This document shows, piece after piece, positions 61-30,272 of a stretch of 35,978 nt of DNA. A program made the translations under genes and the position numbers. Each line of letters begins with the position of its first letter. Position 1 is the first letter of the stretch. The notes under the pieces were generated by a model. The model was given only the letters and a program-made list of their open reading frames with translations. It had not been told where the DNA came from and searched no databases. Location of the stretch: contig CAITPF010000166.1 in NCBI GenBank assembly GCA_903894155.1, forward strand, positions 1 to 35,978, in the 5' to 3' direction. This stretch comes from an uncultured beta proteobacterium. GTDB taxonomy: Bacteria > Pseudomonadota > Gammaproteobacteria > Burkholderiales > Burkholderiaceae_B.

Positions 61-124
61 CCAGGGAAGGGGGGCTGCGTCATCGAATCTAACATGCGGG
101 ATTTTGATCTTGGCTCATGATATT

Positions 125-138: not shown

Positions 139-146
139 TGTCTCAT

Positions 147-180: not shown

Positions 181-209
181 GCGAACAATCCGTAGGGAAT
201 CCGTAGCCT

Positions 210-5946: not shown

Positions 5947-5956
5947 GGAGCTGATC

Positions 5957-7537: not shown

Positions 7538-7596
7538 GCGGTTTTTGTCAGCAAATGCGCCGGCTGTCGCTGTTCGCCGTTTAGCCAGGAGACTGT

Positions 7597-9189
7597 ATGT
7601 TCGACACCATTATTTCCGGTGGACTGATTATTGATGGCACTGGTGCACCAGGCTTCGTGGCCGACGTCGGTATTGTGGGCGACCGCATTATCGCGGTCGG
7701 AGACCTGTCGGCCGCCACCGCAGCCGACAAAATTGACGTGACCGGCTTGACGCTCGCCCCCGGCTTCATTGACATCCATACGCACTCTGATTTCACCCTT
7801 CTCGTCGATGGGCGCGCGGACAGTCAGATTTGCCAGGGCGTGACGACCGAGGTGATCGGACAATGCGGGTACAGTTGCGCTCCGCGCAATCTGGGTGCCG
7901 GTGGAAACCAGCTAATCGGATACATTGACGCCGGCGTTGACATCAACTGGCAAACCTTCGGCGGCTATCTCCGAAAACTGGAAGAGGCTCGCCCGGCCGT
8001 CAATGTAGCGGCATTTGTGGGGCACGGCGCAATTCACCGCGCGATCAAGGGAGACGACACTTCGACCAGCACCTATGAGGAAATCGAGGCCATGGTGCAG
8101 TTGGCTGAAGCGGCCTTTGACGATGGTGCGATGGGATTCTCAACCGGCCTCGAATACTTTCCAGGCAACATCGCCCCGCTGGAAGAGATGGCGGCTTTGA
8201 CCGCGGTAGCGGCCAAGCGCGGCGGGCTTTATGCCACGCATGTGCGCAACCGTGATGTTTATTACGATCTCGGCTTTACGGAGGCCGTGGCCACGGCGCG
8301 GCATGCGGGCGCAAGGTTGCAGATCTCGCACATCCAGCCGAAATTTGGCGCGCCAGTGCATGCCATGGAGCATTCGCTGGAGTTAATTTACCGGGCCGAG
8401 CGTGAAGGGGTGGACGTGGGCTTTGACATCATCCCGCATGACTGGTCCCACACGTCTATGTCCGCGGCGTTGCCACCATGGGCGCGTGCCGGGGGCACTG
8501 CCAAGACCATTGAGCGCCTTAAAGACCCCTTCTTGCGCGATCTCATGAAGAAGAACCCGCAGCCGATTTGGCGTCTGGTACCGGCCGGCAAATGGGACGA
8601 CATCATCTTGCTTAGGGCGGTGGTCAATCATTCGCTGATCGGTCAGACTTTTGCAGAAATCGGGCGACAACGCGGGGTTGATCCTTACGACGCCTATTTT
8701 GATATCCTGATCGAAGAGGGTGAGCATCTGCCGCAAGCTCTTTGGACCTCGCACAGCTTTAACGATGCCGACATCTGCATGTGCATGCACGAGTCCAAGT
8801 GCATCGTGATGTCTGACACGTTGGCCGTGAGCAAGCGTGGCCCGCTGAAAGGGACCATTGGTTCACTCAGTGGTTACGGGTGGACCGCCCGATTGCTTGG
8901 GCATTTCGTGCGCGAACGTGGAATTATTACGCTTGTCGAGGCGATATGCCGGATCACCCTGCGCCCCGCCGAACGACTGGGTCTTGTTGACCGGGGTCGA
9001 GTGCGCGCTGGCGCATTTGCAGACATCGTCGTCTTTGATGCAGAGAACGTACGCGACCAGACGACCGTTCTGACGCCACAGGTCCACCCGACCGGGTTTT
9101 TACATGTCATGGTCAACGGGCGATTCGCCGTTCGGGATGGATTGCGCAATGACGAGCAATCCGGCCGAGTTTTGCGCCACTCTGGCTAG
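7597..9189 (+). CDS. D-aminoacylase (N-acyl-D-amino-acid deacylase)
   Basis: This 530-residue amidohydrolase-superfamily metalloenzyme is predicted to hydrolyse N-acyl-D-amino acids to the free D-amino acid and a carboxylate. It has the expected metal-site pattern of D-aminoacylases: HTH at 61-63, Cys in GQCG at 90, ATHVRN (His215), SHIQPK (His245) and MSDT (Asp407). It also has the family loop GFSTGLEY at about 180-187. It has a full-length beta-sandwich/TIM-barrel layout and no signal peptide, so it is cytoplasmic. A GGAGA ribosome-binding site precedes the ATG. It is the last gene of the operon. Its stop codon lies only 18 bases before a tRNA-Cys remnant, so the operon ends exactly at a probable integration boundary. 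Confidence 0.93.
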   Translation: MFDTIISGGLIIDGTGAPGFVADVGIVGDRIIAVGDLSAATAADKIDVTGLTLAPGFIDIHTHSDFTLLVDGRADSQICQGVTTEVIGQCGYSCAPRNLGAGGNQLIGYIDAGVDINWQTFGGYLRKLEEARPAVNVAAFVGHGAIHRAIKGDDTSTSTYEEIEAMVQLAEAAFDDGAMGFSTGLEYFPGNIAPLEEMAALTAVAAKRGGLYATHVRNRDVYYDLGFTEAVATARHAGARLQISHIQPKFGAPVHAMEHSLELIYRAEREGVDVGFDIIPHDWSHTSMSAALPPWARAGGTAKTIERLKDPFLRDLMKKNPQPIWRLVPAGKWDDIILLRAVVNHSLIGQTFAEIGRQRGVDPYDAYFDILIEEGEHLPQALWTSHSFNDADICMCMHESKCIVMSDTLAVSKRGPLKGTIGSLSGYGWTARLLGHFVRERGIITLVEAICRITLRPAERLGLVDRGRVRAGAFADIVVFDAENVRDQTTVLTPQVHPTGFLHVMVNGRFAVRDGLRNDEQSGRVLRHSG

Positions 9190-9207
9190 GCCATCGCTGG
9201 CGGAATT

Positions 9208-9254
9208 TGGAGGCGCAAGCCGGAATCGAACCGACCTAGACGGATTTGCAATCC
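9208..9254 (-). pseudogene. tRNA-Cys 3'-half remnant (att-like copy 1)
   Basis: These 47 bases match the intact tRNA-Cys at 20339-20385 in 46 positions. They cover the encoded CCA, the acceptor 3' strand, the T arm, the variable region and the anticodon loop, and stop inside the anticodon stem. The 5' half of the tRNA is missing and replaced by unrelated sequence. The orientation is the same as the intact gene. Such a remnant is what a tyrosine-recombinase integration into a tRNA gene leaves at the distal end of the inserted DNA. It cannot make a functional tRNA. Confidence 0.9.
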
Positions 9255-9286
9255 TTGCTGGCCGCGACAGGACTCGACTAGACACG
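9255..9286. repeat. Element-end repeat beside tRNA remnant, copy 1
   Basis: The 32 bases next to the tRNA remnant begin TTGCTGGCCGCG and end ACACG. They match 11863-11894 in 27 of 32 positions. The intact tRNA gene lacks this sequence. Sharing of both the tRNA part and its non-tRNA neighbour suggests the recombination-site arm of one family of integrating elements. Confidence 0.75.
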
Positions 9287-9561
9287 GAATTCCGTAAGGG
9301 CGCTGCAGGGGGCCGAGGGTTGCCTGAATTCACAAGTTCTGGTGAGTTCATGCCTGCAGTCGATCTACCGCACGTTTTCAAACATAGTCTCGCTTCATTC
9401 GTTTTTCAATCCGACTTATCGCCGGGAGCGTTTTCTGCTATCGACGCCAAGCATGGTGAGTTGGCAACGATGTTGGTATATTGCTGGTATATCGAAGGCG
9501 AAGGGTCCGTACGCTTGGCAGCCGACTGAAAATCGGTCGGAAATGAAAGGAAGGTATGGAG

Positions 9562-10497
9562 ATGAAAGCTTTTAAATTGCTCCTCTGCGTCTTGCTTTTT
9601 CCCGTGGCTGCGATGGCTCAGGGCGACGCCGTGCGCCTTCTCGTGGCGGCACCAGCGGGGGGCGGTACCGATGTTGTCAGCCGCATCCTGATCAAGGAGG
9701 CGGCTCCCTTGTTGAACGAGGCGATGCTGGTCCAGAACATCCCTGCGGCAGGTGGCGTTATCGCCATGAGCCAGATGATGCAGGCGCCACCCAACGGCAA
9801 GACCTTGGTTGCGATGGCCAACGGCTCGCTGACTGCTATTCCGCATTTGATCAAGGTGCCGTTTACGGCGGATGACTACATTCCCCTGTTGGGCGTCTCG
9901 AGCGCGCCCTATGTTGTTTGCGCAAGCCCTGCCTTTCCGGCGACCAACGCCAAAGAGTTCGTCGAGGTGCTGAAGGCGAATCCGGATAAGTACACGATTG
10001 GAACGGATGGCGGAGCGGGATGGCTTTCGACCCAACGCGCGCTGCGAGCCCTGGGCGCATCGGTGCGCAACATTTCCTACAAGGGTGCAGCAGAGATCGT
10101 CGTGGGTTTCCTTGGTGGCCACATCGATCTCTACAGTGGTGGCACGGCGTCGATTCTGCAGAGTTCCCAAACAGGCAAGGCGAATTGCTATTTGCTGACC
10201 ACCGCTGACCGGTCACCGTCGTTTCCCCAAGCCGCGGGGCTCAATGATTTCGGCATCGGATCCGAAGAGACGCCGCTCTGGCGCATCGTGCTCGCGCCCA
10301 AGAACACGCCGCCTGACATCGTTGCCCGTCTGGAAGCTGCCTTCCTGAAGGCCGCGAACTCGCCGGCCATGCGGCAGTTCCATACTGACAATGGCGAAAA
10401 GTTCATCGTCTTTCAGGGAGAAGAACTGCGGGCGCGGCTCAAGCGCGAATATGACGGCTTGGGAAAAGTGGCTCAGTCGCTGGGGCTGAAGCCTTGA
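9562..10497 (+). CDS. Bug/TctC-family periplasmic solute receptor
   Basis: This periplasmic receptor of the Bug (Bordetella uptake gene, TctC-like) family has 311 residues from the chosen start. A Sec signal peptide ends near AMAQG (about residue 20). The mature protein has the family pattern: VRLLVAAPAGGGTDVVSR, an NIPAAGG loop, and GTDGGAGWLSTQRAL, corresponding to the ligand-binding loops of other Bug proteins. An ATG two codons upstream (9556) sits one base after the GAAAGGAAGG ribosome-binding site. The ATG at 9562 is correctly spaced (7 bases) and is preferred. No TctA/TctB membrane genes are nearby, which is usual for this family. It pairs with the amidohydrolase gene downstream as the cargo of the smaller compartment. 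Confidence 0.88.
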   Translation: MKAFKLLLCVLLFPVAAMAQGDAVRLLVAAPAGGGTDVVSRILIKEAAPLLNEAMLVQNIPAAGGVIAMSQMMQAPPNGKTLVAMANGSLTAIPHLIKVPFTADDYIPLLGVSSAPYVVCASPAFPATNAKEFVEVLKANPDKYTIGTDGGAGWLSTQRALRALGASVRNISYKGAAEIVVGFLGGHIDLYSGGTASILQSSQTGKANCYLLTTADRSPSFPQAAGLNDFGIGSEETPLWRIVLAPKNTPPDIVARLEAAFLKAANSPAMRQFHTDNGEKFIVFQGEELRARLKREYDGLGKVAQSLGLKP

Positions 10498-10538
10498 AGA
10501 GCTCGCTTATGCGAATCCGCGTTGGATGAAGGCCTGAT

Positions 10539-11636
10539 ATGTCCGTAACGTCAGATCACCACAGCCCGGCATCGGGCCCCGCCAGCGGGTTTCACGGCAC
10601 GACCCATCGAGAGCCTGCCTTACTCAAGAGCTGGCTTGCCGGGTCGCACGAGCCAGCGATCGAGCCCGATCTGCCCATCGTCGATGCACACCACCATCTC
10701 TGGGATGACCAGCGGGGCCGTTATCTCGCCGATGAGCAACTGGTCGATCTGGACTGCGGTCACAATGTGGTCGCAACCGTCTACATCGAGGCCAGTTCGA
10801 TGTACCGGGCCGACGCGCCCCCTGCAATGCAGCCCGCTGGCGAAGTCGAATTCGTCAACGGCATCGCCGCGGCAAGCGCCAGTGGTCGCTACGGCAACAA
10901 GCGGCTTTGCGCTGGCATCGTCGGCTACGCCGACATGATGTTGGGCAACGAGGTGCAGCCGGTGCTGGAAGCGCTGCAGCAAGCTGGCAATGGACGGCTG
11001 CGGGGCATCCGCTACGGTGTCTGCTGGGACACAGGCGATGCGGTGAAATTCATTCGCCGCCAGGTTCCGGCACACCGGTTGGCTGACCCTGTGTTTCGCC
11101 AAGCCTTTGCACGCCTGGCGCCACTGGGTCTGTCTTTCGAGAGCTGGCAGTTTTATCACCAGTTGCCGGATCTGGCGGACCTGCTGCCCGCTTTTCCGCA
11201 CACCAGCGTGATCCTCAATCACTGTGGCGGTGTGTTGGGTATTCCCCCCCACGACAACCGGCAGCAGGTGTTCGAAATTTGGCGAAGGCATATCCGCGAG
11301 CTCGCCCGGTTTTCAAACCTCACGGTCAAGTTGGGAGGGCTCGGCATGCTGTACTCCAACTGGGACTTTCACCTACGCGCCAAACCTCCCACATCCGTGG
11401 AGTTGGCCGACGCCTGGCGGCCCTATATTGAGACCTGTATCGAGGCCTTCGGCCCAGACCGTTGCATGATGGAAAGCAACTTTCCCGTCGATAAGCAGAC
11501 GTGTAGTTACGGCGTGTTGTGGAATGCGATGAAGCGCATCACGGAACACTGCACAAGTTCCGAGAAAACCAACCTCTACATGGGAACCGCGGTGAAAGCT
11601 TATCGTCTTGAGGCGATACGGCCACACGAACGCTGA
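10539..11636 (+). CDS. Amidohydrolase_2-family metal-dependent hydrolase (PDC-hydrolase/lactonase-like)
   Basis: This 365-residue TIM-barrel amidohydrolase belongs to the family that includes 2-pyrone-4,6-dicarboxylate lactonase and other lactonases and decarboxylases. The N-terminal metal motif IVDAHHHLWD has HxH at about 51-53. It also shows a VYIEASSMY strand, LRGIRYG, a His in ILNHCGG, and the C-terminal MMESNFPVDK with the conserved catalytic Asp. About 40 extra residues precede the first strand. GAAGG lies 7 bases before the ATG. It follows the Bug receptor gene by 41 bases on the same strand, probably one transcript, suggesting that it acts on the imported compound. The substrate is unknown. 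Confidence 0.85.
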   Translation: MSVTSDHHSPASGPASGFHGTTHREPALLKSWLAGSHEPAIEPDLPIVDAHHHLWDDQRGRYLADEQLVDLDCGHNVVATVYIEASSMYRADAPPAMQPAGEVEFVNGIAAASASGRYGNKRLCAGIVGYADMMLGNEVQPVLEALQQAGNGRLRGIRYGVCWDTGDAVKFIRRQVPAHRLADPVFRQAFARLAPLGLSFESWQFYHQLPDLADLLPAFPHTSVILNHCGGVLGIPPHDNRQQVFEIWRRHIRELARFSNLTVKLGGLGMLYSNWDFHLRAKPPTSVELADAWRPYIETCIEAFGPDRCMMESNFPVDKQTCSYGVLWNAMKRITEHCTSSEKTNLYMGTAVKAYRLEAIRPHER

Positions 11637-11815
11637 CCATCTGGCTCAATGGGCAGAGCGGTCTACATTTGGTGAGTTGGCTGAAGAAATCCCGATCAGG
11701 GCAGTGTCGAACGGCTAAACAGGGGCAGATGCTACGTTTACGCCACCCCTAAGAGAAGGCATAAAAAGGCGACCAGGCCGCGCTGCGGTAGATCGCTGAT
11801 TTATACGGCTTTATC

Positions 11816-11861
11816 TGGCGGCGCAAGCCGGAATCGAGCCGACCTGGCCGGATTTTCAATC
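11816..11861 (-). pseudogene. tRNA-Cys 3'-half remnant (att-like copy 2)
   Basis: These 46 bases match the intact tRNA-Cys 3' half in 42 positions. The changes are at the discriminator base, T arm, anticodon-stem edge and anticodon loop. The match again stops just inside the anticodon stem and is followed by the same non-tRNA sequence as copy 1. It is more diverged than copy 1. That is expected if this half was brought in on an incoming element's own attachment site and later displaced by a second integration at the reconstituted tRNA gene. Confidence 0.88.
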
Positions 11862-11862
11862 A

Positions 11863-11894
11863 TTGCTGGCCGCGTCAGGACACGATCAAACACG
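11863..11894. repeat. Element-end repeat beside tRNA remnant, copy 2
   Basis: This stretch starts TTGCTGGCCGCG and ends ACACG. It is 27 of 32 identical to 9255-9286, in the same orientation and at the same distance from its tRNA remnant. It lies at the left end of the larger (8.5-kb) compartment. Confidence 0.75.
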
Positions 11895-11955
11895 AAGTCC
11901 ACGAATCTTTCAGAAGCGGCCCTTGGCTCGTCGTGCCCGGCCTGCACACCAATGA

Positions 11956-12948
11956 CTATTCGTAAAAACTGACGCCAGATGACTTGATCAGTTCTCCCAG
12001 GGTTTTACTTTCCCTTTTCAATTTCGCTCCCAGATCATCGGGCGATACGTATGCAACCGGGTTGCCCTGAGCGTAAAGCTGCGCAACATATGCGGGTTCT
12101 TTGCTCATCGCCTCGAGTTCACCGCTAAGCTTGATCACAATGTCTTTTGGAAGTCCTTTGGGCCCGAACAGTGCCGTCCAGATTGGAAAGACGATATTTG
12201 GGTAGCCCAGTTCAACGAGCGTTGGCACACCTGGCAGGTAAGGCAGGCGCTTTGCTGAGGTGACTGCGATCGGGATCAGCGTGCCGTCCTTGATTGGTTG
12301 CTCGATCGCGCCGGAGTACCCGACCGCAAACAGCGATACGCGTCCGGCCATGGCGTCGACCAGCGCTGGGGCGGCCCCGCGATAGGGAACATGGACGATG
12401 TTGATCCCTGACTCGTGAGCAAACAGTGCGGGCGGAAAGTGCGTTGTACTTCCAACGCCTGCTGAGGCATACGTCAGAATGCCTGGCTGGGCCTTTGCGA
12501 GCGCAATAAATTCTGCAAGTGTTTTTACGCCGACGGACTTGGGAACGACGAAGACGTGCGCAGATTCGGCTACGCCACCAATTGGCACAAAGTCTTCCTC
12601 CGGGTTGAAGGACAGCGGGTTATCTGGCGCTCGCACGTGGCGATAGATGCCGAGGGAATTTGCCGCAAGGTAAAGGGTGTAGCCGTCTGGCGGGGCCTTG
12701 ACCGCCGATTCGGTTCCGACGATACCGCCTCCGCCGCTTGGTCGGTTCAATATCACGACAGGCTGACCGACACGCTCAGAAAGGCGCTGGGCCATGACTC
12801 GGGCAACGATGTCTGTGAGGCCGCCAACACCGAACGGAACAATCACCTGTATTGGCTTCGACGGATAGGGTTGCGCGTGCGCAGGCAATGATGCCGTGAC
12901 GATCCCCAGGCTGAGAAGAAGCGTTGTGACGCACTGGTGTACTCGCAT
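11956..12948 (-). CDS. Bug/TctC-family periplasmic solute receptor
   Basis: This 330-residue Bug-family receptor has a Sec signal peptide (core LLLSLGIVTASL, cleavage after AHA at about 25). The family motifs follow: YPSKPIQVIVPFGVGGLTD, RPSGGGGIVG, and YASAGVGSTTHFP around the second ligand-binding loop. CAGGAGAC precedes the ATG. It is the last gene of the minus-strand operon that starts with the PrpD-DUF35 fusion, 75 bases after the alpha/beta hydrolase gene. It probably delivers the substrate of that pathway. No membrane components are encoded with it. Confidence 0.9.
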   Translation of the reverse strand: MRVHQCVTTLLLSLGIVTASLPAHAQPYPSKPIQVIVPFGVGGLTDIVARVMAQRLSERVGQPVVILNRPSGGGGIVGTESAVKAPPDGYTLYLAANSLGIYRHVRAPDNPLSFNPEEDFVPIGGVAESAHVFVVPKSVGVKTLAEFIALAKAQPGILTYASAGVGSTTHFPPALFAHESGINIVHVPYRGAAPALVDAMAGRVSLFAVGYSGAIEQPIKDGTLIPIAVTSAKRLPYLPGVPTLVELGYPNIVFPIWTALFGPKGLPKDIVIKLSGELEAMSKEPAYVAQLYAQGNPVAYVSPDDLGAKLKRESKTLGELIKSSGVSFYE

Positions 12949-13023
12949 GAATTGTCTCCTGATGCGAACGTCTTTGCCAATCGCTGTCGCTGACCTCTGA
13001 GTTGGATCGCTTTGACGACAGGC

Positions 13024-13833
13024 TTACTTGATCGAATTGAGAAACTGCTCCACAAGGATATTGAACTCGGGGGTTTCCATGTGAGGATAGTGCCCGATAC
13101 CTTCCATTGAAATCAGTCTGGCATTCGGGATGCCCGCAATGGTTTCCTCAACCAGATTAAAAGGAACGAAGTAGTCTTCCTGCCCCCAGACCACCGCGAC
13201 CGGACACGATATGCCGGGAAGCAAGGCGCGCACATCGTGCGACACCCAACCCTTGAGATCGTTGTAGTGAACCTTGGGATCGCCCAGGCGCCGTGTCCAA
13301 ACAATTTCCTCAACGCGCTCAGGCAGTGCCCTTGTTCCTGAGGCGGAAAATCCACCAACGTATCCATTATCCGCGAAGCTCGGGATGGCAGAGTCTTCCA
13401 GGCCGCGTTCAAGCGCTGCCAGTGGGTATGTCGGGGTTCTTGCGGCCGCCTCGCACGGAATTGCTGCGAGTAAGTCCCTGCTGTGGTGCGCAGCAATATC
13501 GAGCGTGATATCTCCGCCGATTGAGCATCCCATGATGACGGGGCGGTGCAATCCGAGCTTTTTGCAAAGATTCCAGACCACTTCCGCGTGCGCATGAATT
13601 GAGTCGATGGGCTTGAATCCCTTCAGCAATGACTTGCAGTGACCCGGTAAATCCGGTGCGATGACGTAGTATCCGCGCTCGGCAAAGTAGGGCATCACGA
13701 AGCGCCACTGCAAGGCATGCTTTCCCGCCGTATGAATGCAGACCATCGGCTGCCCGGCGGGGTCTCCCGCGACATCCATGAAGAGGCGGTGGCCGTCGAC
13801 CTCGACATACTTCGCTGTAATTTCGATGGTCAT
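13024..13833 (-). CDS. Alpha/beta hydrolase (MhpC-like fold)
   Basis: This 269-residue alpha/beta hydrolase has the oxyanion region IHTAGKHALQW (33-43), a nucleophile elbow GCSIGG with Ser104, a probable acid in GQEDYFVP, and the catalytic His in GIGHYPHME near the C-terminus. No signal peptide is present. Fifteen more codons are open upstream, but the ATG at 13833 overlaps the previous stop as ATGA and gives a normal N-terminus. Substrates in this fold range from meta-cleavage products to esters, lactones and CoA thioesters. Here it may hydrolyse a ring or ester product of the thiolase pathway encoded by its operon partners. Confidence 0.88.
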   Translation of the reverse strand: MTIEITAKYVEVDGHRLFMDVAGDPAGQPMVCIHTAGKHALQWRFVMPYFAERGYYVIAPDLPGHCKSLLKGFKPIDSIHAHAEVVWNLCKKLGLHRPVIMGCSIGGDITLDIAAHHSRDLLAAIPCEAAARTPTYPLAALERGLEDSAIPSFADNGYVGGFSASGTRALPERVEEIVWTRRLGDPKVHYNDLKGWVSHDVRALLPGISCPVAVVWGQEDYFVPFNLVEETIAGIPNARLISMEGIGHYPHMETPEFNILVEQFLNSIK

Positions 13834-14213
13834 GCGTTGCTCTCCAGCGAGGCGGGGTCTGACTGAACGATGCCGCATAGCACTTCGCTAAGCCCGTAGA
13901 CCGCCTTGATGATTCGTGAGTACTCGATGGTATTGCCCTCCACCTTCAGACGCCCCGTGACGATTGCTTCCTGTAGCCTGTTTTTGGGCCCAGCTGTGGC
14001 GAATTTCCAGTCATCGACCGTCCCCTTGAGGCAAAAGGTGTAGCCAAACGGGGGAGGCTGGCGCGTTGCGAGAATCACGCGCCCCATGAACACCTTCATC
14101 CAGATACGGTCACTGCCGAGCTCGAGTTGAATTGCTCCATCGAAGTACTTTGCGCTAGCCGCGAAGTTCGGATTCCCATTCAATTTTGAGGCCAGGAGAT
14201 CGGTGTTGAGCAT
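13830..14213 (-). CDS. SCP2 sterol-carrier-like protein
   Basis: This small 127-residue soluble protein is best matched to the SCP2 (sterol carrier protein 2) lipid/acyl-CoA-binding fold. Features are an early FDGAIQLELG strand pair, a GTVDDWKFATAG segment, and the family's characteristic late AIVTGRLKVEGNTIEYSR helix-strand. There are no cysteines suggesting catalysis beyond one near the C-terminus. A GGTAGGAAG ribosome-binding site precedes the ATG, 7 bases after the thiolase stop. SCP2 domains often accompany SCP-x-type thiolases and would present a hydrophobic CoA ester. The family call is by pattern and is moderately sure. Confidence 0.65.
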   Translation of the reverse strand: MLNTDLLASKLNGNPNFAASAKYFDGAIQLELGSDRIWMKVFMGRVILATRQPPPFGYTFCLKGTVDDWKFATAGPKNRLQEAIVTGRLKVEGNTIEYSRIIKAVYGLSEVLCGIVQSDPASLESNA

Positions 14214-14220
14214 TTGCTTC

Positions 14221-15375
14221 CTACCTCTTCAGGATGATGACTGCGGACGCACCGGTGTCGTCGCCAATGAATCCGCCCGAGCAGTGCGCAAGCGCTGCCT
14301 TGGCTCCATGGATCTGGCGTGCGCCGGCTTGGCCGCGAAGTTGCCAGACAAGTTCTGCGACTTGAGCCACGCCCGTTGCTCCAACAGGATGGCCCTTTGA
14401 GAGGAGACCGCCACTGGGGTTGATTGGAAACCGTCCGCCAAGCTGTGTCTCACCTGATTCGACCCATCGGCCGCCTTCGCCAGGAGGGCAAAGCCCAAGA
14501 TTCTCAACCCGCACAATTTCGGCGATCGTAAAGCAGTCGTGCACCTCAGCGAAATCAAGGTCCGCAGGACCAATGCCAGCCTGCTCGAATGCCGCCTTCG
14601 CGGCTCTTGATTCGAGTTCGTTTGCTGCGATATCCCGGTGCCGTTCATACGTGCCCGACGTCAGTGCGGCGGCCGCGACGAAAATTGGCGTGACGTTGAG
14701 TTTTCGCGCAATTTCTTCGCTGCAAAGTATCGCCGCTGCTCCTCCGTCGGTCGTCGGGCATGAGTCATAAAGGGTGAGAGGCGCGCAGATAAGAGGGGAG
14801 TTGCGGACATCCTCAATCGTGATCTCCTTTGATTGCAGCGCTGCACGCGGATTCAGTTTTGCATTTCGACGGTTCTTGACCGCGACCATGGCAAGTTGCT
14901 CAAGCGTGGTGCCGTACTCCCTCATGTGCCGTTGCGCGCGCATTGCCCACACGCCCGGTGGCGCAAGCCCGGCGATGCCCTCGATCGTATCGCCTATTCT
15001 TCCCAGTGGTGCCGCCCCCTGTCCGTTGAGCTTCTCGACGCCCACCGCCAACGCAATATCGTAAAAGCCGGAGGCAACGGCCATCCATGCCTCGCGAAAG
15101 GCGGTCGACCCGCTGGCACAGGCGTTTTCGACCCGCGTGATGGGTATGCCGGTAATACCGACTCCGCGCAGAATTTGCTGCGCGACGCAGGTCATGTGCC
15201 CCGTTTCACGTCGCTCGGTCAGGTTCCCCAGGTAGGCGACCTCCACGTCCTTGGCCGAAAGTCCTGCATCGGCCAGCGCCTCCCACACAGCCTGTCGGCC
15301 GAAACTTTCCACCGGAGTTTCGGGAAACTTCCCAAAGCGCGTCATGCCCACCCCGACGACTGCGACTTGCCTCAT
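14221..15375 (-). CDS. SCP-x-type thiolase / acetyl-CoA acetyltransferase-like
   Basis: This is a 384-residue thiolase-superfamily enzyme. The nucleophilic Cys is at 86 in ENACASGS, EVHDCF is at 277-282 (with the HDCF signature of the SCP-x/lipid-transfer thiolase branch), and NPSGGLLSKGHPVGATG is at about 319-335. This branch includes thiolases that work with DUF35 partners and the retro-aldolases of steroid side-chain degradation. The upstream gene supplies a DUF35 domain as part of a fusion, and its stop overlaps this start as ATGA. The likely role is retro-Claisen or retro-aldol cleavage (or condensation) of a CoA ester. Direction and substrate are not visible in sequence. Confidence 0.9.
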   Translation of the reverse strand: MRQVAVVGVGMTRFGKFPETPVESFGRQAVWEALADAGLSAKDVEVAYLGNLTERRETGHMTCVAQQILRGVGITGIPITRVENACASGSTAFREAWMAVASGFYDIALAVGVEKLNGQGAAPLGRIGDTIEGIAGLAPPGVWAMRAQRHMREYGTTLEQLAMVAVKNRRNAKLNPRAALQSKEITIEDVRNSPLICAPLTLYDSCPTTDGGAAAILCSEEIARKLNVTPIFVAAAALTSGTYERHRDIAANELESRAAKAAFEQAGIGPADLDFAEVHDCFTIAEIVRVENLGLCPPGEGGRWVESGETQLGGRFPINPSGGLLSKGHPVGATGVAQVAELVWQLRGQAGARQIHGAKAALAHCSGGFIGDDTGASAVIILKR

Positions 15376-17201
15376 GCCGTGTCTCCCTGTTGTGATGCGG
15401 GATCATCCACTACAGGACGAAAGTAGAATCCGACGACTTCCCGACCACTGGGCTCCCGGCGTATAGGCCTGACCACCATCTCCAGTGAGGCATCCATCTG
15501 AAGAGTCTCCGGGCTCCAGTCGACGATTTTCGCCACGACCCGAACTCCCTCGGGCAAGTCCACGTATCCGTAGGCGTAGGGCACTTCGAAACCCTTCGGC
15601 GCCAGCGTTTCACGCTCGACAACCGTGAAAGCGTAAAGTTTCGCGCGACGGCTGAGAAAGCGCTCCTCCATCGTGCCCTGCTTCATGCAGGCGCTGCACA
15701 AGTCCTGTCTTGGGAAGTAGACCGTGCCACACTCTGTGCATCCGCTGCCAAGCAGGTGCGGCAATCCGTCTGGTGCCCCTGAAAGATCGAGTAACTGCGG
15801 ATCGAAGGAAGCGATTTCTCGCGATTCGACGACAGTCGGTTGCGCGGCCGTGAGTCGCATCAGCGACCGCACATTGGACAGCGCGTCAATCGAAGCCACG
15901 AGATCCACAACCTCAGAGGCAATCGCCGGGGTTAAGACTCCAGCCGTGGCGTCATGGAATTTGTCGACCAGTTCACCCCAGTCAAGGGGAGCCATGGCAT
16001 GCCCTTTCGCATGCAGCACGCTTTGTGCAAATTCTCTCCCGTCGCTGCAGCGCACAAAAACATTGTCCGGATATGAATCCCCATTGTCATTGGAATCCAT
16101 CCCGGCGTGAACGTGCATTTGAACCTTGCGAGCAAGATTTCTCACCGTCGTCTCGTGGACCTGATTCTCGCTGAATTGGGGTAGCCCGAGTTTGCGGTGC
16201 ATCAGCGCGCTGGCCACGCAATAGTGAAGGCTGAATTTTGCCTCGAGTCCGTTTACAGGCTCATCGTAAAACAGGATCTTGGGCGCAAGGGGGGGCATCT
16301 CGCATCGAATCTCAGCGATATCGTCAGGACGCAGATCATGTTGCGTTGCAAGGTGAATGATCGCGTCGACGACGCGGTGCTGCATCAGGCAACAGGGATA
16401 CTTCTTGACATTGACGCCTGGATTGACGATTCCCCAGGGCTGGCCAAGTTCTTTACACATTTCATCGGCAGTGACTGGCAGGCCATGAAAGAATGCGAAG
16501 GGAAATCCAAGGGCCGCTTCAAAAATATCTGGTGCGGAGGTAAATCCGTCGCGCGCGAGTTGTGCGGCGATTATCCCGTTGCGCGCCGCGTTGCCGCCGT
16601 GCAGCGATTTCGTGTCCGTGCCGAAGTTTTTGACGAGACCCGCCGCAGTCGACGCAGCAATGCCGAGCGCGTGGGCGGTTTGCGCGACGTCAAGCCGAAG
16701 TAGTTTCGCGGCAGCTGCGCTAACCCCCAGGGTTCCAAACACGGCAGTGGGATGCCATCCCTTCAGGTGCAGCATGGGCATTGTCCGTGCGATCTTGGCC
16801 CAAACCTCGGCGCCCAAGGCATAGGCGGTGACCACTTCCGCGCCCGTGCTGCCCAGTTCTTCGGCCAGGGCCAGTATTGGCGGGAACAACACCGCGCTCA
16901 GATGACCTTGGGCGTGATGCCCAACATCGTCGAAGTCGAGGACGTGAGCCAGGATGCCGTTTACCCATGCAGCATCCTCAGCGCAGGCGCGCACCAGGCT
17001 TCCCACCAGCGTGCATGTCGGGTTTGATCCTTTTGCCGCAACGTGCGCGATCGCGATCTGACCTGCAGATTCACTTCGCGCAGCAAGCGTTACCGCAAGC
17101 GTATCCAACAGGTTGCGCCTGGTGGCTGTGACTGCAGCAGGGGGGAGGTCAGCAGGGGAAGTCGACACGACAAACTGTGCTATCCTTTTTGCGACGGTCA
17201 T
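15372..17201 (-). CDS. MmgE/PrpD-family protein fused to a DUF35 zinc-ribbon/OB-fold domain
   Basis: This is a 609-residue single reading frame with two parts. Residues 1 to about 450 are an MmgE/PrpD-type domain (2-methylcitrate dehydratase, immune-responsive protein and iminodisuccinate epimerase superfamily). Its landmarks are LDFDDVGHHAQGHLSA near 88, LHGGNAARNG near 199, and KKYPCCLMQHRVVDAI near 264. Residues about 482-609 form a DUF35 domain: a rubredoxin-like zinc ribbon with Cys488, 491, 502 and 505 (CTEC, CSAC) followed by an OB-fold (YGYVDLPEGVRVVAKI). Normal MmgE/PrpD proteins are about 450 residues, and DUF35 proteins are normally separate small subunits of SCP-x thiolases. The thiolase gene follows with an ATGA overlap. 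AGAGGA precedes the ATG. The fusion probably tethers a dehydratase/hydratase-type enzyme to the thiolase. Confidence 0.88.
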   Translation of the reverse strand: MTVAKRIAQFVVSTSPADLPPAAVTATRRNLLDTLAVTLAARSESAGQIAIAHVAAKGSNPTCTLVGSLVRACAEDAAWVNGILAHVLDFDDVGHHAQGHLSAVLFPPILALAEELGSTGAEVVTAYALGAEVWAKIARTMPMLHLKGWHPTAVFGTLGVSAAAAKLLRLDVAQTAHALGIAASTAAGLVKNFGTDTKSLHGGNAARNGIIAAQLARDGFTSAPDIFEAALGFPFAFFHGLPVTADEMCKELGQPWGIVNPGVNVKKYPCCLMQHRVVDAIIHLATQHDLRPDDIAEIRCEMPPLAPKILFYDEPVNGLEAKFSLHYCVASALMHRKLGLPQFSENQVHETTVRNLARKVQMHVHAGMDSNDNGDSYPDNVFVRCSDGREFAQSVLHAKGHAMAPLDWGELVDKFHDATAGVLTPAIASEVVDLVASIDALSNVRSLMRLTAAQPTVVESREIASFDPQLLDLSGAPDGLPHLLGSGCTECGTVYFPRQDLCSACMKQGTMEERFLSRRAKLYAFTVVERETLAPKGFEVPYAYGYVDLPEGVRVVAKIVDWSPETLQMDASLEMVVRPIRREPSGREVVGFYFRPVVDDPASQQGDTA

Positions 17202-17254
17202 GCCTGTCCTCTTTAGTGTTGATGCTGCAAATTACCCATCATTCCACGTCTAGA

Positions 17255-17272
17255 CTGTCAATTAGTTGACGG
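17255..17272 (-). promoter_or_regulatory. Candidate Crp/Fnr-family operator, copy 1
   Basis: CTGTCAATTAGTTGACGG (plus strand) contains the perfect inverted repeat GTCAA-TTAG-TTGAC at 17257-17270. It lies between the divergent PrpD-fusion and Crp/Fnr genes, directly before the regulator's start. Read on the minus strand it ends TTGACAG, a consensus -35 hexamer pointed at the PrpD-fusion operon. It closely matches the palindrome at 18043-18060 on the regulator's other side. Confidence 0.6.
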
Positions 17273-17273
17273 A

Positions 17274-18032
17274 GTGGTGCAGAAAGTATCCGCCAACGTT
17301 TGGACCATGGAAAACCAGCCTGATTTTCCCGGCACCGTTCACCCCCTCCTTCTGAACCGGGCTCTCCAAGAGGCTCGCCCGGTTGGCACCTGGCCCGTCA
17401 GTTGCGTCAAAGAGTTAATCGCCGCCACACGGGTCAAGACCTTTGAACCCGACTCCTGGATATTGCGCCGCGGCGAACCAGTCAATTTCCTCTATATCGT
17501 CGTGTCCGGCATCGTAGAAATCAGCGCATCAAGCGCTGACGGCTCCCGGCTGACGATCCGATATGCCGGGCCCGGTTGGAGCTTTGGCCTTTTGGGCTTG
17601 GTTGACGGAAACCCCATGAATCATTCCTGCCGGGCCCACGAGCGAACTGCCGTTGCGTTGTTGCCAAAGGAAGTGCTATTTAGCATCCTAAAGCGCGAAC
17701 CTACCCTGTGGGAGTCGGTCGCGCGCGAGGTCGCGGAGCGCAATCGGTTCATCCTGCGCCAGTTCGCGGAACAGGCCTTCGAACCTTTGCGTGTCCGGCT
17801 CGCCCGGGTCATCCTGATCCTTGCGGAGTCATACGGCTCCGAATGCAATGACGGAGTCGTTGTCAACTTGCGCCTTGCCAAAGACAAACTCGGCGAGATG
17901 CTCAGCGTTTCGCGCCAGAGCGTCACCAAGGAAATCAAGCCCCTTGAAACGGAAGGGGTGATTCGCATGAACTACGGTCGGATCCTGATTCTGGATATGG
18001 AGGCGCTCAGGGCAATCGCTCGCGCCGACTGA
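17274..18032 (+). CDS. Crp/Fnr-family transcription regulator
   Basis: This regulator has up to 252 residues. A cyclic-nucleotide-binding-like beta-barrel spans about 48-140 (RRGEPVNFLYIVVSGIVEI near 65-83, GPGWSFGLLGL near 99-109), followed by the dimer helix and a C-terminal winged helix with recognition segment SVSRQSVTKEIKPLE at about 211-225. No iron-sulfur cysteine cluster typical of FNR is apparent at the N-terminus, so the signal is unknown. The start is uncertain. GTG at 17274 and 17277 lie in or against the palindrome and GGAG. The ATG at 17307 (residue 12) would leave the palindrome in the untranslated region but has no clear ribosome-binding site. Flanking palindromes suggest it controls both the minus-strand thiolase operon and the plus-strand CoA-transferase genes. 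Confidence 0.9.
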   Translation: MVQKVSANVWTMENQPDFPGTVHPLLLNRALQEARPVGTWPVSCVKELIAATRVKTFEPDSWILRRGEPVNFLYIVVSGIVEISASSADGSRLTIRYAGPGWSFGLLGLVDGNPMNHSCRAHERTAVALLPKEVLFSILKREPTLWESVAREVAERNRFILRQFAEQAFEPLRVRLARVILILAESYGSECNDGVVVNLRLAKDKLGEMLSVSRQSVTKEIKPLETEGVIRMNYGRILILDMEALRAIARAD

Positions 18033-18042
18033 GACCCATTAA

Positions 18043-18060
18043 CTGTCCAGAAGTTGACAG
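18043..18060 (+). promoter_or_regulatory. Candidate Crp/Fnr-family operator, copy 2
   Basis: CTGTCCAGAAGTTGACAG lies within a perfect longer inverted repeat, AACTGTC-N8-GACAGTT (18041-18062). It falls in the 100-base gap between the regulator gene and the CoA-transferase gene. The right half contains TTGACA (18054-18059), a consensus -35 pointed at the CoA-transferase. Oriented the same way relative to its target, it matches the minus-strand reading of copy 1 in 12 of 18 positions, including all of TTGACAG. No strong -10 follows, which fits an activator-dependent promoter. Confidence 0.6.
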
Positions 18061-18132
18061 TTATTCCCGAAAAACTGCACTAGGCTTCCCACCAGGCTCA
18101 GCGTTGAGGGTCGAACTTCGGGAGAATGGCTG

Positions 18133-19320
18133 ATGGCGGAAATATTGAAAGGGGTTCGCGTCCTGGATTTATCTCAGGTGATGGCCGGGCCGTTCGGAAC
18201 GATGGTCCTCGGCGACTTGGGTGCCGAGATCATCAAAGTCGAGAACGCCGATGGCGGGGATCTCTGCCGAAACAACCGGCAGTACTTGCACAAGGGTGAA
18301 AGCGCTTACTTCATCAGCCTTAACCGGAACAAGAAGAGCCTCACGCTTAACCTGCGAAGTCAAAAGGCGCGCCAGGCTTTCTTTGATCTGGTGAAGATAT
18401 CAGACGTGGTGTATGACAATTTTCGCCCGGGAACGATGGAGAAACTTGGTGTCGGCTATGACGTTCTGAAACAGATCAATCCGCGGATCATCTGCTGCTC
18501 GGTATCAGGTTTCGGCGCGAACAGCCCGTTCAAGGACAGGCCGGCGCTGGATCTTCTGATTCAGGCCATGGGTGGCGTGATGAGCTTTACCGGTGAGGAG
18601 AAGGGTCGGCCGCCCGTGCGCGTTGGCTACCCGATGGGCGATCTCGCTGCCGCCCTGTACGCGACCATTTCGGTGCTGGGTGCGCTTTACCATCGAACCG
18701 TGACGGGTGAGGGGCAACAGTGCGACATCGCGATGCTGGATGCACAGCTATCACTGATGACATATCGTGCCCAATACTATTTTCTTGCGGGAGTTATTCC
18801 TGAGCCGATTGGATCCGCACACGCTACGTCGATTCCAATCCGCGCATTCAAGACAGCTGACGGCGGTTATGTCACGGTTGAGGCATCCCACGAGAAGTTC
18901 TTTCGCAACTTGTGCGGCGTGATCGAAATGCCAGAGCTTGCTCAGGATCAGCGATTTTCGTCGCTGGCGGCGAGGGCAAAGAACAAGGAGGCTCTGTTTG
19001 CGATTCTCGAAGAGAGGTTCCTGGCCAGAACACGGGATGACTGGATCGAGAGGCTGGTTGCGGGCGACGTACCGGCTGGGCCAGTCAATAACCTGGAGGA
19101 GGCGCTTTCGAACCCGTCCATATTGGCCCGCGACATGGTAGCCGAGGTGGATCATCTTGGAGAGCGAATAAAAATCGTCGGCAATCCAATCAAGATGTCG
19201 GGCCTTGGGCAGCAGACCTTCAGCGCGCCACCGACCCTGGGCGAACACAATATGGAAATTCTTGGTGGGTATCTGAACTACTCAGCCGAACAGATCCGGG
19301 AAGTACTTGAGAGCCCATAG
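18133..19320 (+). CDS. CaiB/BaiF family III CoA-transferase
   Basis: This 395-residue cytoplasmic CoA-transferase of family III moves CoA from a donor thioester to a free carboxylic acid. The N-terminus has LKGVRVLDLSQVMAGPFGTMVLGDLGAE-type sequence (family hallmark, residues 5-32). Further landmarks are IIKVE, NRNKKSLTLNL (64-74), VVYDNFRPGTMEKLGVGYD, and GYPMGDLAAA with the probable catalytic Asp170. GGGAGA lies 8 bases upstream of the ATG. It follows the Crp/Fnr gene and a candidate operator and is followed 25 bases later by a Bug receptor gene. The pair suggests import and CoA activation of an acid that then enters the divergent PrpD/thiolase pathway. Confidence 0.93.
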   Translation: MAEILKGVRVLDLSQVMAGPFGTMVLGDLGAEIIKVENADGGDLCRNNRQYLHKGESAYFISLNRNKKSLTLNLRSQKARQAFFDLVKISDVVYDNFRPGTMEKLGVGYDVLKQINPRIICCSVSGFGANSPFKDRPALDLLIQAMGGVMSFTGEEKGRPPVRVGYPMGDLAAALYATISVLGALYHRTVTGEGQQCDIAMLDAQLSLMTYRAQYYFLAGVIPEPIGSAHATSIPIRAFKTADGGYVTVEASHEKFFRNLCGVIEMPELAQDQRFSSLAARAKNKEALFAILEERFLARTRDDWIERLVAGDVPAGPVNNLEEALSNPSILARDMVAEVDHLGERIKIVGNPIKMSGLGQQTFSAPPTLGEHNMEILGGYLNYSAEQIREVLESP

Positions 19321-19345
19321 CGATCCCTGTGTGATGAGGAAGACC

Positions 19346-20332
19346 ATGAAGACTTTATTTATTCGACTCATTGGTTTTTGGTCCGTACTGCTTTGGTCGG
19401 CAGGATTGGTTGTCGCGGCAGAAAGCTTTCCGTCAAAGCCGATCACGATCGTCGTGCCGTTTGCACCGGGTGGCGCGACTGACGCGGTCGCCCGCATTTA
19501 CGCGGACAACATGTCGAAGACGCTTGGTCAGCCAGTTGTCGTGCAAAACATGACCGGAGCGGGAGGAACCGTTGGCTCCAGATATGTCATGCGCGCCAAG
19601 CCGGACGGAACCACGATATTGATTGGTAACCTTGGCACTCACGTGGCGAGTCTTGGCCTGTTTGCAAATCCCGGTTATGACCCAGTGACTGACTTCAAGG
19701 CCGTCAGCCTGATCGCCTCAATCCCGATGTTTGTTGTCGCGAAAAAGTCCCTGCCAGTCAAGAATTTTCGCGAGTTCGTCACGTATTTGAAGGAGCATCC
19801 GGGACAACTGTCGTATGGCACCGCCGGAATTGGTTCGACTGCGCACCTGACGTGTCTGTATCTGGAAAAATTAGTTGGTTCGCAGGCGCAACACGTACCC
19901 TATGCGGGCACAGGTCCGGCGCTCTCGGCCTTGCTTGGACAGCATATCGATTATGTCTGCGACGCGGCCGGCGCAATCGTCCCTCAAATACAGGCAGGCG
20001 CGGTTAACGGACTTGTCGTAACGACCCGGGAGCGTCTTACGGCGCTTCCTGATATGCCAACCTCAATTGAGGCAGGCTATCCTGAATTCATCGTTTACGG
20101 TTGGATCATCATCTTTGCGCCAAAAGACACGCCGAATTCCGTCATCACGATTCTTGGCGATGCTCTTGCCAAGGCTGCGAAGGATCCCGAGGTTAGAGAC
20201 AAGATCCTTGCCGCCGGAAGTGAACTGCCGCGAATTCAGGACTTGGGACCCCAGGCGGCGGCGAAGCTCCTCAATCAGGAGATCGAACGATGGATACCGC
20301 TGATGAAGTCTGCTGGCATCAGGCCAGAGTAG
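19346..20332 (+). CDS. Bug/TctC-family periplasmic solute receptor
   Basis: This 328-residue Bug-family receptor has a signal peptide (core LIGFWSVLLWSAGLVV, cleavage near VAA at about 25). FPSKPITIVVPFAPGGATDAV, NMTGAGG and YGTAGIGSTAHLT mark the family ligand-binding loops. The frame extends 13 codons upstream to a TTG, but the ATG at 19346 follows GAGGAAG at good spacing and starts the signal peptide. It probably shares the CoA-transferase transcript. The stop lies 6 bases before the 3' end of the tRNA-Cys region, so the gene abuts the right edge of the putative island. Confidence 0.9.
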   Translation: MKTLFIRLIGFWSVLLWSAGLVVAAESFPSKPITIVVPFAPGGATDAVARIYADNMSKTLGQPVVVQNMTGAGGTVGSRYVMRAKPDGTTILIGNLGTHVASLGLFANPGYDPVTDFKAVSLIASIPMFVVAKKSLPVKNFREFVTYLKEHPGQLSYGTAGIGSTAHLTCLYLEKLVGSQAQHVPYAGTGPALSALLGQHIDYVCDAAGAIVPQIQAGAVNGLVVTTRERLTALPDMPTSIEAGYPEFIVYGWIIIFAPKDTPNSVITILGDALAKAAKDPEVRDKILAAGSELPRIQDLGPQAAAKLLNQEIERWIPLMKSAGIRPE

Positions 20333-20475
20333 GGCTTTTGGAGGCGCAAGCCGGAATCGAACCGACCTGGACGGATTTGCAATCCGCTGCATAACCACTC
20401 TGCCATTGCGCCTTTTAGAGAGTGCAACATGATACTACAAAGGGCGACCAGGCTTTTGCGGCCTCACGTCCGGAT
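20333..20475. other. Intergenic region with tRNA-Cys
   Basis: It holds the tRNA-Cys gene and, to its right, the likely tRNA promoter region read on the minus strand (TAGTAT as a possible -10 around 20431-20436). An AGGC-CGCAAAA-GCCT hairpin read on the minus strand (20450-20464) lies just past the stop of the deacetylase gene and could help terminate it. The stretch marks the change from the moderately GC-rich left part to the visibly GC-richer right part of the window. Confidence 0.4.
20339..20412 (-). tRNA. tRNA-Cys (anticodon GCA)
   Basis: This is a complete 74-base tRNA including encoded CCA. Read on the minus strand, the acceptor 5' strand GGCGCAA pairs with TTGCGCC. The anticodon stem GCGGA/TCCGT (one G-T pair) encloses the loop TTGCAAA with anticodon GCA. 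The T stem GTCGG/CCGGC carries the loop TTCGATT. The discriminator is T, as expected for bacterial tRNA-Cys. It is the only intact RNA gene in the window. Two remnants of its 3' half to the left mark it as an integration hot spot. Confidence 0.97.
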
Positions 20476-21369
20476 CTAGGGGTGTAACTGCTGGTTCTCC
20501 GGCAGGCGGCGGTAGTGCCGCGCGACCTCGCCGGGCAGCGTGAACCAGACCTGGTCGCGATACGAGAGGATGTGCGCGAGTGCTTTGCGCAGGCGCGCGA
20601 GCCGAAAGGGTTGGCCCATGATGAAAGAGTGCAGCGAGATCGCGCACACCAGCGGCGTATCCGCCGAGCGGCGCAGCATCTCGTCGAAGTTCTCGACCAG
20701 CATGTCGCAATACTCGTTCGCAGAATTGTGCCGGTACGCGATGGCGGGCTGGTCGTTGAGCTCGATGGGGTAGGGCACGGCCAGGATGGGCTTGGTCCGC
20801 GAGCTGACCCAGAAGGGCTGCTCGTCGCAAATGCCCCAGTCAAGCACATAGGAGTACCCGGCCTGCACGAGCAAATCCGTGGTCACCAGGCTCGGCGTGA
20901 GGTAGGGGCTTAACCAGCCCTGCGGGCGCTTGCCGTCGGCCTTCTTCATGCTCGCGGTGACCTCGTCGATCATTTTCTTTTCGGTCCGCTCGTCCATCTC
21001 GATTTGCCGTTCGGCATTGGAGCGGCCGTGCGCGATCATTTCGTCGCCGCGATCGCGGTGCGCCTGGATCAGGTCCGGGCAGTGCTCGTAGTTCTCGGTG
21101 TTGACGATCACGCCGACGTTGAGCTTAAGCTCGTCGAACAGCTCGATCAGGCGCCACTCGCCGATGCGGTTGCCATATTCGCGCCAGAGCCAGCTGCGCT
21201 GGCTCCACGGCTGCGTCTGGCGATCGAGATCGACGCCGCATTGCACGCCATACGGAAAATGCTCGATGTTGACTGCGATATAGACGGCAAGGCGCTTGTT
21301 ATCCGGCCAGGCGAACTTGGGCCGACTCTTGATGCCTGAATATTTGAATCGGTCGTGGGATGGCAGCAT
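20476..21369 (-). CDS. Polysaccharide-deacetylase-fold protein, PuuE/allantoinase-like (A)
   Basis: This 297-residue protein has the NodB-homology/polysaccharide deacetylase fold in its PuuE (uric-acid-pathway allantoinase) like branch. Visible are FAWPDNKRLAVYIAVNIEHF (19-38), RIGEWRLIELFDEL, VNTENYEHCPDLIQ, MIAHGRSNAE in the His motif region, GWLSPYLTPSL, and VCAISLHSFIMGQPFR near the C-terminus. The canonical TFDD Asp pair and the H-x3-H motif of metal-dependent deacetylases are not present, as in PuuE-like proteins. GGAGA precedes the ATG at 21369. It is divergent from a paralogue at 21586, and three 24-bp repeats lie between them. The likely role is hydrolysis of a cyclic amide or ureide, or of an N-acyl bond. 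The substrate is unknown. Confidence 0.85.
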   Translation of the reverse strand: MLPSHDRFKYSGIKSRPKFAWPDNKRLAVYIAVNIEHFPYGVQCGVDLDRQTQPWSQRSWLWREYGNRIGEWRLIELFDELKLNVGVIVNTENYEHCPDLIQAHRDRGDEMIAHGRSNAERQIEMDERTEKKMIDEVTASMKKADGKRPQGWLSPYLTPSLVTTDLLVQAGYSYVLDWGICDEQPFWVSSRTKPILAVPYPIELNDQPAIAYRHNSANEYCDMLVENFDEMLRRSADTPLVCAISLHSFIMGQPFRLARLRKALAHILSYRDQVWFTLPGEVARHYRRLPENQQLHP

Positions 21370-21585
21370 GGTCGATCTCCAGTCAGATGAAGCGTTTTGC
21401 CGCCGACGCTGGTCGGCAAGTCTGCGACCATCATAAATGAAACTTCAGTAGCAAAAATAAATGAAACTTCAGTAGCAAAAATAAATGAAACTTCAGTGGC
21501 AAAATGGGCTTGCTGCCCGTGCTGCGCCACAACGACCGTGTGGCGTCGCACGCCAGATCCCGACACCCGGTGGAGAACGCCTGCA
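21370..21585. promoter_or_regulatory. Divergent promoter region between the two deacetylase-like genes
   Basis: The 216-base region contains three 24-bp tandem repeats at 21433-21504. AT-rich repeat units sit inside GC-rich DNA, so the divergent promoters are probably here. The plus-strand frame is open through the repeats, which gives a falsely extended N-terminus for the right-hand gene. Confidence 0.5.
21433..21504 (+). repeat. Three 24-bp tandem repeats with internal palindrome
   Basis: The unit reads ATAAATGAAACTTCAG, then TAGCAAAA. Copies 1 (21433-21456) and 2 (21457-21480) are identical, and copy 3 (21481-21504) differs by one base (TAGC to TGGC). Each copy holds TGAA-AC-TTCA, a perfect 4-2-4 palindrome. 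The palindromes therefore recur every 24 bases on nearly the same face of the helix. This suits cooperative binding of a dimeric regulator, although slippage-generated repeats without function are possible. Confidence 0.85.
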
Positions 21586-26049: not shown

Positions 26050-26073
26050 GCGATCGGTGCCTGGAAAAGGGGG

Positions 26074-28727: not shown

Positions 28728-28740
28728 GGTAACGCCCGGC

Positions 28741-30245: not shown

Positions 30246-30272
30246 TGCCGTCCAACTGCTTGAGGGGCTAGG

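Follow-up and report, generated by a model that had tools for sequence, protein, structure and literature searches.

Two catabolic islets beside the tRNA-Cys gene of an uncultured beta proteobacterium: probable decayed islands in tandem

Introduction

An intact tRNA-Cys gene that is followed on its downstream side by two further copies of its own 3' half raises the question of whether mobile DNA entered the gene twice, and by what means. We addressed this question in a 35,978-nt stretch of DNA (the window), which is one entire contig of a 502-contig metagenome-assembled genome (MAG) of an uncultured beta proteobacterium (completeness 99.45%, contamination 5.57%). An earlier note on this DNA had proposed tandem integration of two elements by a tyrosine recombinase. 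Our analysis favors, with a probability of roughly 0.7, a reading of the same kind, in which the two blocks set off by the copies (2.6 and 8.5 kb) would be decayed tandem islands, similar to cis-mobilizable elements (CIMEs), that arose through successive tRNA-Cys insertions by a tyrosine recombinase.

Results

Two same-facing tRNA-Cys halves share a flanking arm

ARAGORN identified a sole tRNA in the window, tRNA-Cys(GCA) at 20339-20412 on the minus strand, in agreement with Rfam, which at the gathering score returned tRNA-Cys alone. Using tRNA-Cys and its flank as the query, a BLAST search of all 502 contigs (E ≤ 0.001) yielded three places, all on this contig: the tRNA-Cys gene, 9206-9254 and 11804-11861. 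No third remnant was detected at this threshold, either left of 9208 on the contig (which begins at base 1) or on the other contigs. The argument turns on five features:

9208..9254, minus strand: outer remnant, a tRNA-Cys 3' half, 46/47 identical (BLAST, alignment)
9255..9287, unstranded: shared non-tRNA arm beside the outer remnant, putative attP arm of element 1 (27/34 identity)
11816..11861, minus strand: inner remnant, a tRNA-Cys 3' half, 42/46 identical, decayed copy (BLAST, alignment)
11862..11895, unstranded: shared non-tRNA arm beside the inner remnant, putative attP arm of element 2 (27/34 identity)
20339..20412, minus strand: intact tRNA-Cys (GCA), the single full copy found in the assembly and presumably the regenerated target (ARAGORN, Rfam, own-genome BLAST)

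Both remnants lie on the minus strand, as the tRNA-Cys gene does, and on the 3' side of the gene. Counted from the CCA end, the outer remnant spans tRNA nt 28-74 with one change and the inner remnant nt 29-74 with four; the starts at nt 28/29 fall in the 5' strand of the anticodon stem. ARAGORN, Rfam, BLAST and alignment thereby bear out what the earlier note had described, namely an intact gene with one 46/47 and one 42/46 copy, both facing the same way and breaking in the anticodon stem. For reference, 30 mononucleotide shuffles of window positions 1-20300 were aligned without gaps to the 46-nt half and reached 28/46 at best. Because the inner remnant is changed at tRNA nt 34, 42, 52 and 71, which by our own reading of the cloverleaf would correspond to the anticodon, the anticodon-stem end, the T loop and the discriminator, we regard it as a decayed copy.

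The likeness of the two remnants extends beyond their tRNA part. A repeat search recovered an 82-nt repeat (9205-9286 and 11813-11894, 85% identity), and the arms agree at 27/34 positions (9254-9287 versus 11862-11895, with position 9254 still belonging to the tRNA in the outer copy). The probability of this agreement is ~3 × 10−10 by a simple binomial estimate for a single comparison (0.27 per site), and the arms match the 5' part of tRNA-Cys itself at just 6/34 and 4/34 positions. On a plain reading, both remnants would adjoin one kind of element end, an attP arm left beside the displaced half, and the shared arm points to one end type that may have been used twice. Because of this arm, which the earlier note does not mention, the remnant observation is firmer than in that note.

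These features would best be explained if two foreign blocks had entered tRNA-Cys in succession through a site-specific tyrosine recombinase, with crossover in the anticodon stem-loop. Each insertion would have kept the tRNA intact, the element bringing a new 3' half, and the former 3' half would have been displaced to the outside, where it would adjoin the shared arm, an end belonging to the element. We infer the tyrosine recombinase as the agent, two separate events, and an integrase that may later have been lost or may have been supplied in trans.

Both islets carry catabolic cargo and neither yielded an integrase

We annotated ten proteins between 9.2 and 20.4 kb with Pfam and NCBIfam, which gave the following gene content:

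9255..11815, unstranded: element 1, 2.6 kb, no integrase found (Pfam, six-frame PF00589 search, tblastn)
9556-10497, plus strand: TctC receptor, element 1 (Pfam)
10539-11636, plus strand: Amidohydro_2 protein, element 1 (Pfam)
11862..20338, unstranded: element 2, 8.5 kb, no integrase found (Pfam, NCBIfam, six-frame PF00589 search, tblastn)
11956-12948, minus strand: TctC, element 2 (Pfam)
13024-13878, minus strand: a/b hydrolase, element 2 (Pfam)
13830-14213, minus strand: SCP2-like protein, 127 aa, weak match below cut-off, element 2 (Pfam)
14221-15375, minus strand: thiolase, element 2 (Pfam)
15372-17201, minus strand: MmgE/PrpD + ChsH2-like fusion, 609 aa, element 2 (Pfam, NCBIfam)
17274-18032, plus strand: Crp-type regulator, element 2 (Pfam)
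18133-19320, plus strand: class III CoA-transferase, element 2 (Pfam)
19307-20332, plus strand: TctC, element 2 (Pfam)

From these assignments, the cargo of both islets is predicted to consist of catabolic and transport genes. Neither Pfam nor NCBIfam found an integrase, transposase or transfer protein among the ten islet proteins. A six-frame PF00589 search of the whole assembly (E ≤ 0.001) recovered four genes on four other contigs and gave no match on the window contig, and the best hit in the window from tblastn with integrases of the family and of this genome had E = 0.025.

As an observation on the cargo itself, the C-terminal ChsH2-like zinc-ribbon/OB part of the MmgE/PrpD fusion resembles BbsA, and the thiolase gene comes directly after the fusion gene.

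One gene per islet was tested for close relatives, and neither had one in the genus. For the amidohydrolase of the 2.6-kb islet (10539-11636), a threshold of E ≤ 1e-120 returned 0/31 other genomes of the genus and 5/267 other genomes of the family, the latter at 53-60% identity. For the MmgE/PrpD fusion (609 aa) in the 8.5-kb islet, 171/267 other family genomes gave matches at E ≤ 1e-40; those listed were at most 40% identical, none ran past residue 498/609, and the ChsH2-like part was barely touched. At E ≤ 1e-110, two of the 398 other genomes of the order matched (42-44%), both without the C-terminal part. A tblastn search of plasmids gave 722 records, all below 60% identity, and among 60 of these 722 the longest match reached residue 519/609 at 29.5%. 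A full-length MmgE/PrpD + ChsH2-like match was absent from the matches listed for the family, the order sample and the plasmids.

Base composition was considered as well. The three blocks left of tRNA-Cys have guanine-plus-cytosine (GC) contents of 58.1, 58.8 and 57.3% versus 63.6% on the right, and GC at third codon positions of chosen genes is 0.69, 0.72 and 0.64 in the left blocks versus 0.81 right of tRNA-Cys. We dropped GC as decisive proof of an island, as other stretches of this genome cover the same range.

The window tRNA-Cys is separated from its ancestral flanks

We compared 20 stretches around tRNA-Cys from 19 of the 31 genus relatives (DUF, or domain of unknown function, Nudix, murB-like and dapB-like gene names were assigned by our own reading of the sequences). 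A conserved block downstream of tRNA-Cys that includes the DUF and Nudix marker genes was present in 18/18 genus genomes besides relative G002, and a murB-like gene lay upstream in 16/19. In relative G026 (L083, 10858-11067), the order is dapB-like, murB-like, tRNA-Gly, tRNA-Cys and then the block with the conserved downstream genes. The window genome keeps this order on another of its contigs (C126) through the last base of tRNA-Gly (L120:1362-1437; 100% over 76 nt), where the match ends; the expected tRNA-Cys start would be 48 nt beyond that point. On a further contig (C231), the match to the downstream block comes within 12 nt of the expected tRNA-Cys end (L121:~16972) and ends there as well. 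No recognisable tRNA-Cys half was seen at either junction; the one on C231 consists of a run of C, where an assembly fault is possible.

The DNA on the two sides of the window locus is as follows:

1..9207, unstranded: DNA beyond the outer remnant, with a GntR/aminotransferase (MocR-like) regulator, a dipeptide-type ABC transporter and an Amidohydro_3 protein (Pfam, five proteins)
20476..32057, unstranded: right flank, a cluster syntenic, in whole or in part, in six genus relatives (synteny comparison)

Synteny of the right flank ends at 20483-20522 in five relatives, and the contig of the sixth stops earlier; the fetched right-flank stretches of all six contain no tRNA. By this comparison, the tRNA-Cys of the window genome is parted from both ancestral flanks and sits beside an unrelated cluster instead, and the DNA at 1-9207 is not the ancestral flank of tRNA-Cys. 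For this reason the earlier note's proposal that the outer copy is the original half of the host is not supported: the ancestral downstream flank is found on a different contig, where it meets unrelated DNA and no tRNA half, and the one gene tested left of the outer copy, an amidohydrolase (7597-9189), had no match at E ≤ 1e-60 in any of 31 other genomes of the genus. The 5' flank of the window tRNA-Cys resembles that of G002 (95% over 110 nt, the tRNA counted in).

Two short tandem repeats were also noted in the right flank. One, at 24520-24614, comprises five copies at 15-nt spacing and separates an amidase gene from a gene for an AMP-binding C-terminal-domain protein; the other, at 21433-21504, comprises three 24-nt copies that are translated as INETSVAK repeats close to the beginning of a deacetylase open reading frame (ORF).

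Islands recur at tRNA-Cys within the family

A tRNA-Cys query matched 57/61 genomes searched and a query of the outer remnant with its arm matched 259/268 family genomes (own genome included in both); among the matches listed for the latter, only the window's inner copy reaches well into the arm. We then scanned the 19 genus loci with each genome's own 3' half over 1.7-17 kb downstream. A clear remnant was present in G002 only (30/33 over the last 33 nt), and the best matches in the other 18 loci were 23-26 of 46, the same as shuffles. The refuting case considered beforehand, in which the same remnants recur across the genus, was therefore not seen.

Among the genus members, G002 has the tRNA-Cys closest to that of the window. 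Its remnant (L064, contig C152, 475-1757) is a partial 3' end that lies 1.2 kb downstream across an Abi_2 gene and has a different arm. Genome-wide, the tRNA query additionally matched, within the genus, the remnant of G002, another full tRNA-Cys in G025 and, weakly (77%), a place in G023. With a shorter query, eight genomes of the genus (G002, G004, G007, G013, G015, G023, G025 and G026) each counted a second match, those of G002 and G025 being among the matches listed.

Beyond the genus, four family genomes (G139, G098, G152 and G145) carry a displaced tRNA-Cys fragment of 45-51 nt at 42-50 kb from the tRNA, and these fragments begin at tRNA nt 24-30, a range that includes the nt 28/29 of the window remnants. 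A PF00589 integrase adjoins the fragment in G139 and G098, and a similar integrase-like ORF lies near it in G152 and G145, judged by likeness only. By these sequences, tRNA-Cys is a repeated target of islands in this family. The stretches fetched from the four genomes did not contain the window's arm.

Two side observations concern this site. In the four family islands (L096, L098, L100, L102 and partner loci), the integrase-like ORF stands beside the displaced fragment and not beside the intact tRNA (2/4 confirmed as PF00589). In G035 (L106, 9928-13780), a 3.8-kb insert with an inovirus-like secretin and a reverse transcriptase separates tRNA-Cys from a 45-nt fragment, and its short ORFs resemble, by eye, pieces of a tyrosine recombinase.

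A source element was sought with the junction itself. With up to 3 mismatches, the core-and-arm pattern occurred in 1/399 order genomes, the window's own (G000). An exact scan of genome_contigs with 18 fixed bases taken from core and arm hit 8 stretches, where ~7-8 are expected by chance (our own estimate from collection size), and none of the 8 has a tRNA half. Scanned exactly for the arm alone, viral_contigs contained 11 matching stretches, and in none of them does a tRNA half lie beside the arm. A near-search of plasmids with 9200-20420 returned the tRNA itself only, in two records.

Discussion

Together, these data support the earlier interpretation in part: it was right in kind and too specific. 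For tandem integration by a tyrosine recombinase, the footprint matches the standard set out in the extract of the Islander paper (PMC4383910), and the shared end backs two events, whereas neither block holds a recognisable integrase or transfer gene.

Several observations weigh against successive insertion into tRNA-Cys. No integrase was found in or adjoining either islet, so that we only infer the recombinase. The ancestral flanks lie on other contigs without tRNA halves, so that the locus must have been rearranged at least once more. The search for an empty site in the genus gave none, because the window tRNA-Cys has neither ancestral flank beside it. The 40 nt past the three CCA ends agree, ungapped, at 13/40, 7/40 and 13/40 positions, which is near chance, so that the presumed attP would be common on one side only. 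Composition is not decisive, in that 13 unmasked stretches of this genome range from 56.7 to 65.1% GC; four of them were picked for integrases and three for ancestral flanks, and the other six span 57.7-65.1%. In the genus, 7/19 of the relatives' loci were scanned over less than 9 kb. Finally, the outer remnant, which under the simplest stacking was displaced earlier, has one change compared with four in the inner remnant, a weak point given so few changes.

This last observation also bears on the order of events. The earlier note had taken the more diverged inner copy to fit a model in which the outer copy is the host's half and the inner one came with the first element; in the simplest scheme, the copy displaced first (the outer) is the less decayed one. 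The decay pattern thus weakly disfavors simplest stacking, with the outer first. An incoming element may use the att site of a resident one, according to the excerpted text of PMC5704250, and use of a resident site here would yield the same map as stacking.

A single integration could have produced the locus if the second remnant and its arm were a segmental duplication of the first 82-nt junction, with the 2.6-kb piece arriving by another route. The remnants are indeed alike over the tRNA part and the arm (82 nt, 85%) with flanks past the CCA ends near chance, and no recombinase was found. Even so, the two junctions cease to resemble each other ~34 nt into the arm, and the duplicated stretch extends no farther. 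Nothing in a plain duplication explains why it should end at a unit the size of a recombination site, and no transposase domain was found in the ten islet proteins tested. We consider this account unlikely.

Harder to credit is a scheme in which the blocks were passive cassettes that never had an integrase of their own, a tRNA-Cys integrase acting in trans having recognised the arm and tRNA half and stacked the cargo at the tRNA, in the manner of satellites or CIMEs. Two blocks of unrelated cargo have kept the same short end, there is scant non-coding room beside the arms (the largest gap is 9255-9555), and four PF00589 genes exist elsewhere in the genome. Set against this, the core-and-arm pattern occurs in no other of the 399 order genomes, the exact genome and viral scans gave unrelated matches, and the arm is absent (≤3 mismatches) from all four integrase contigs. 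Two of the four PF00589 proteins moreover resemble, by our own reading, the housekeeping XerC/XerD type, and simple decay accounts for the data with less. A more daring extension, equally hard to credit, is that integrase-free catabolic cassettes, each consisting of cargo with a tRNA-Cys half and a 34-nt end, were stacked by a trans-acting recombinase in an integron-like fashion, on a tRNA lifted from its ancestral locus. If it were true that the short end recruits cargo in trans, this would be a simple route for gathering metabolic modules.

An assembly artefact, with unrelated pieces of the MAG joined at tRNA-like sequence, might be entertained given 502 contigs, 5.57% contamination, a tRNA-Cys neighbourhood unseen in the relatives fetched and left and right blocks that differ in composition, but it is very improbable, as the three tRNA copies differ mutually and so are not one collapsed repeat, the remnants are internal to the contig with genes on either side, and the assembly's only full tRNA-Cys was found here with a 5' flank like that of G002.

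Decayed tandem islands at tRNA-Cys thus remain the reading we prefer. It implies that catabolic and uptake blocks can pile up at one tRNA gene and outlast the machinery that placed them, and that island finders demanding an integrase would miss such islets.

Comparison with known systems

Per the Islander extract (PMC4383910), ordered, same-facing 3'-half remnants with a break in the anticodon stem are what a tyrosine recombinase typically leaves behind when it inserts DNA at the anticodon subsite. Measured against the conditions given there, the window has an intact tRNA with same-orientation 3' fragments downstream and islets of 2.6 and 8.5 kb, within the 2-200 kb range; a tyrosine integrase inside each island is lacking, and because no integrase gene lies inside them the islets are not filed as Islander islands.

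CIMEs, as the excerpted part of PMC5704250 describes them, have lost their integration and transfer genes, keep their att sites and become stacked by accretion. The window islets are alike in being tandem blocks with att-like bounds at the 3' end of the target gene, and integration and transfer genes are absent from them by Pfam, NCBIfam and the integrase search. For attL and attR, tRNA halves and an arm on one side are present and the other side is not shared, so the att sites are putative. Unlike the CIMEs in that excerpt, no functional integrative and conjugative or integrative and mobilizable element was seen adjoining the window islets, and the cargo here is catabolic.

Two catabolic systems offer further parallels. 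The Dehalococcoides ssrA islands are, per the extract of PMC3146451, tandem, with a conserved motif beside each repeat and with 15 islands lacking the integration module. They share with the window the RNA-gene 3'-end repeats, a short motif beside each and catabolic cargo, but use a tmRNA target and a serine recombinase, in contrast to tRNA-Cys and a crossover in the anticodon region. In Bordetella petrii, the clc-like islands GI1-GI3 at tRNA-Gly likewise stand in tandem with degradation genes and tRNA 3'-end direct repeats, and GI2 is proposed to have entered the repeat left by GI3; unlike the window islets, they are described in the extract of PMC2717098 with their own integrases, conjugation genes, circular forms and an 18-bp repeat at tRNA-Gly.

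Closest in target are the family tRNA-Cys islands of G139, G098, G152 and G145, which have the same target gene and a displaced downstream 3' fragment in the same orientation. They differ in that their fragments lie 42-50 kb away, with a PF00589 integrase beside the fragment in G139 and G098, and in that the window's arm is absent from the stretches fetched. On the sequence evidence, and by the extracts of the papers compared, the window islets appear to be of a known kind, an ordinary example of tandem tRNA islands.

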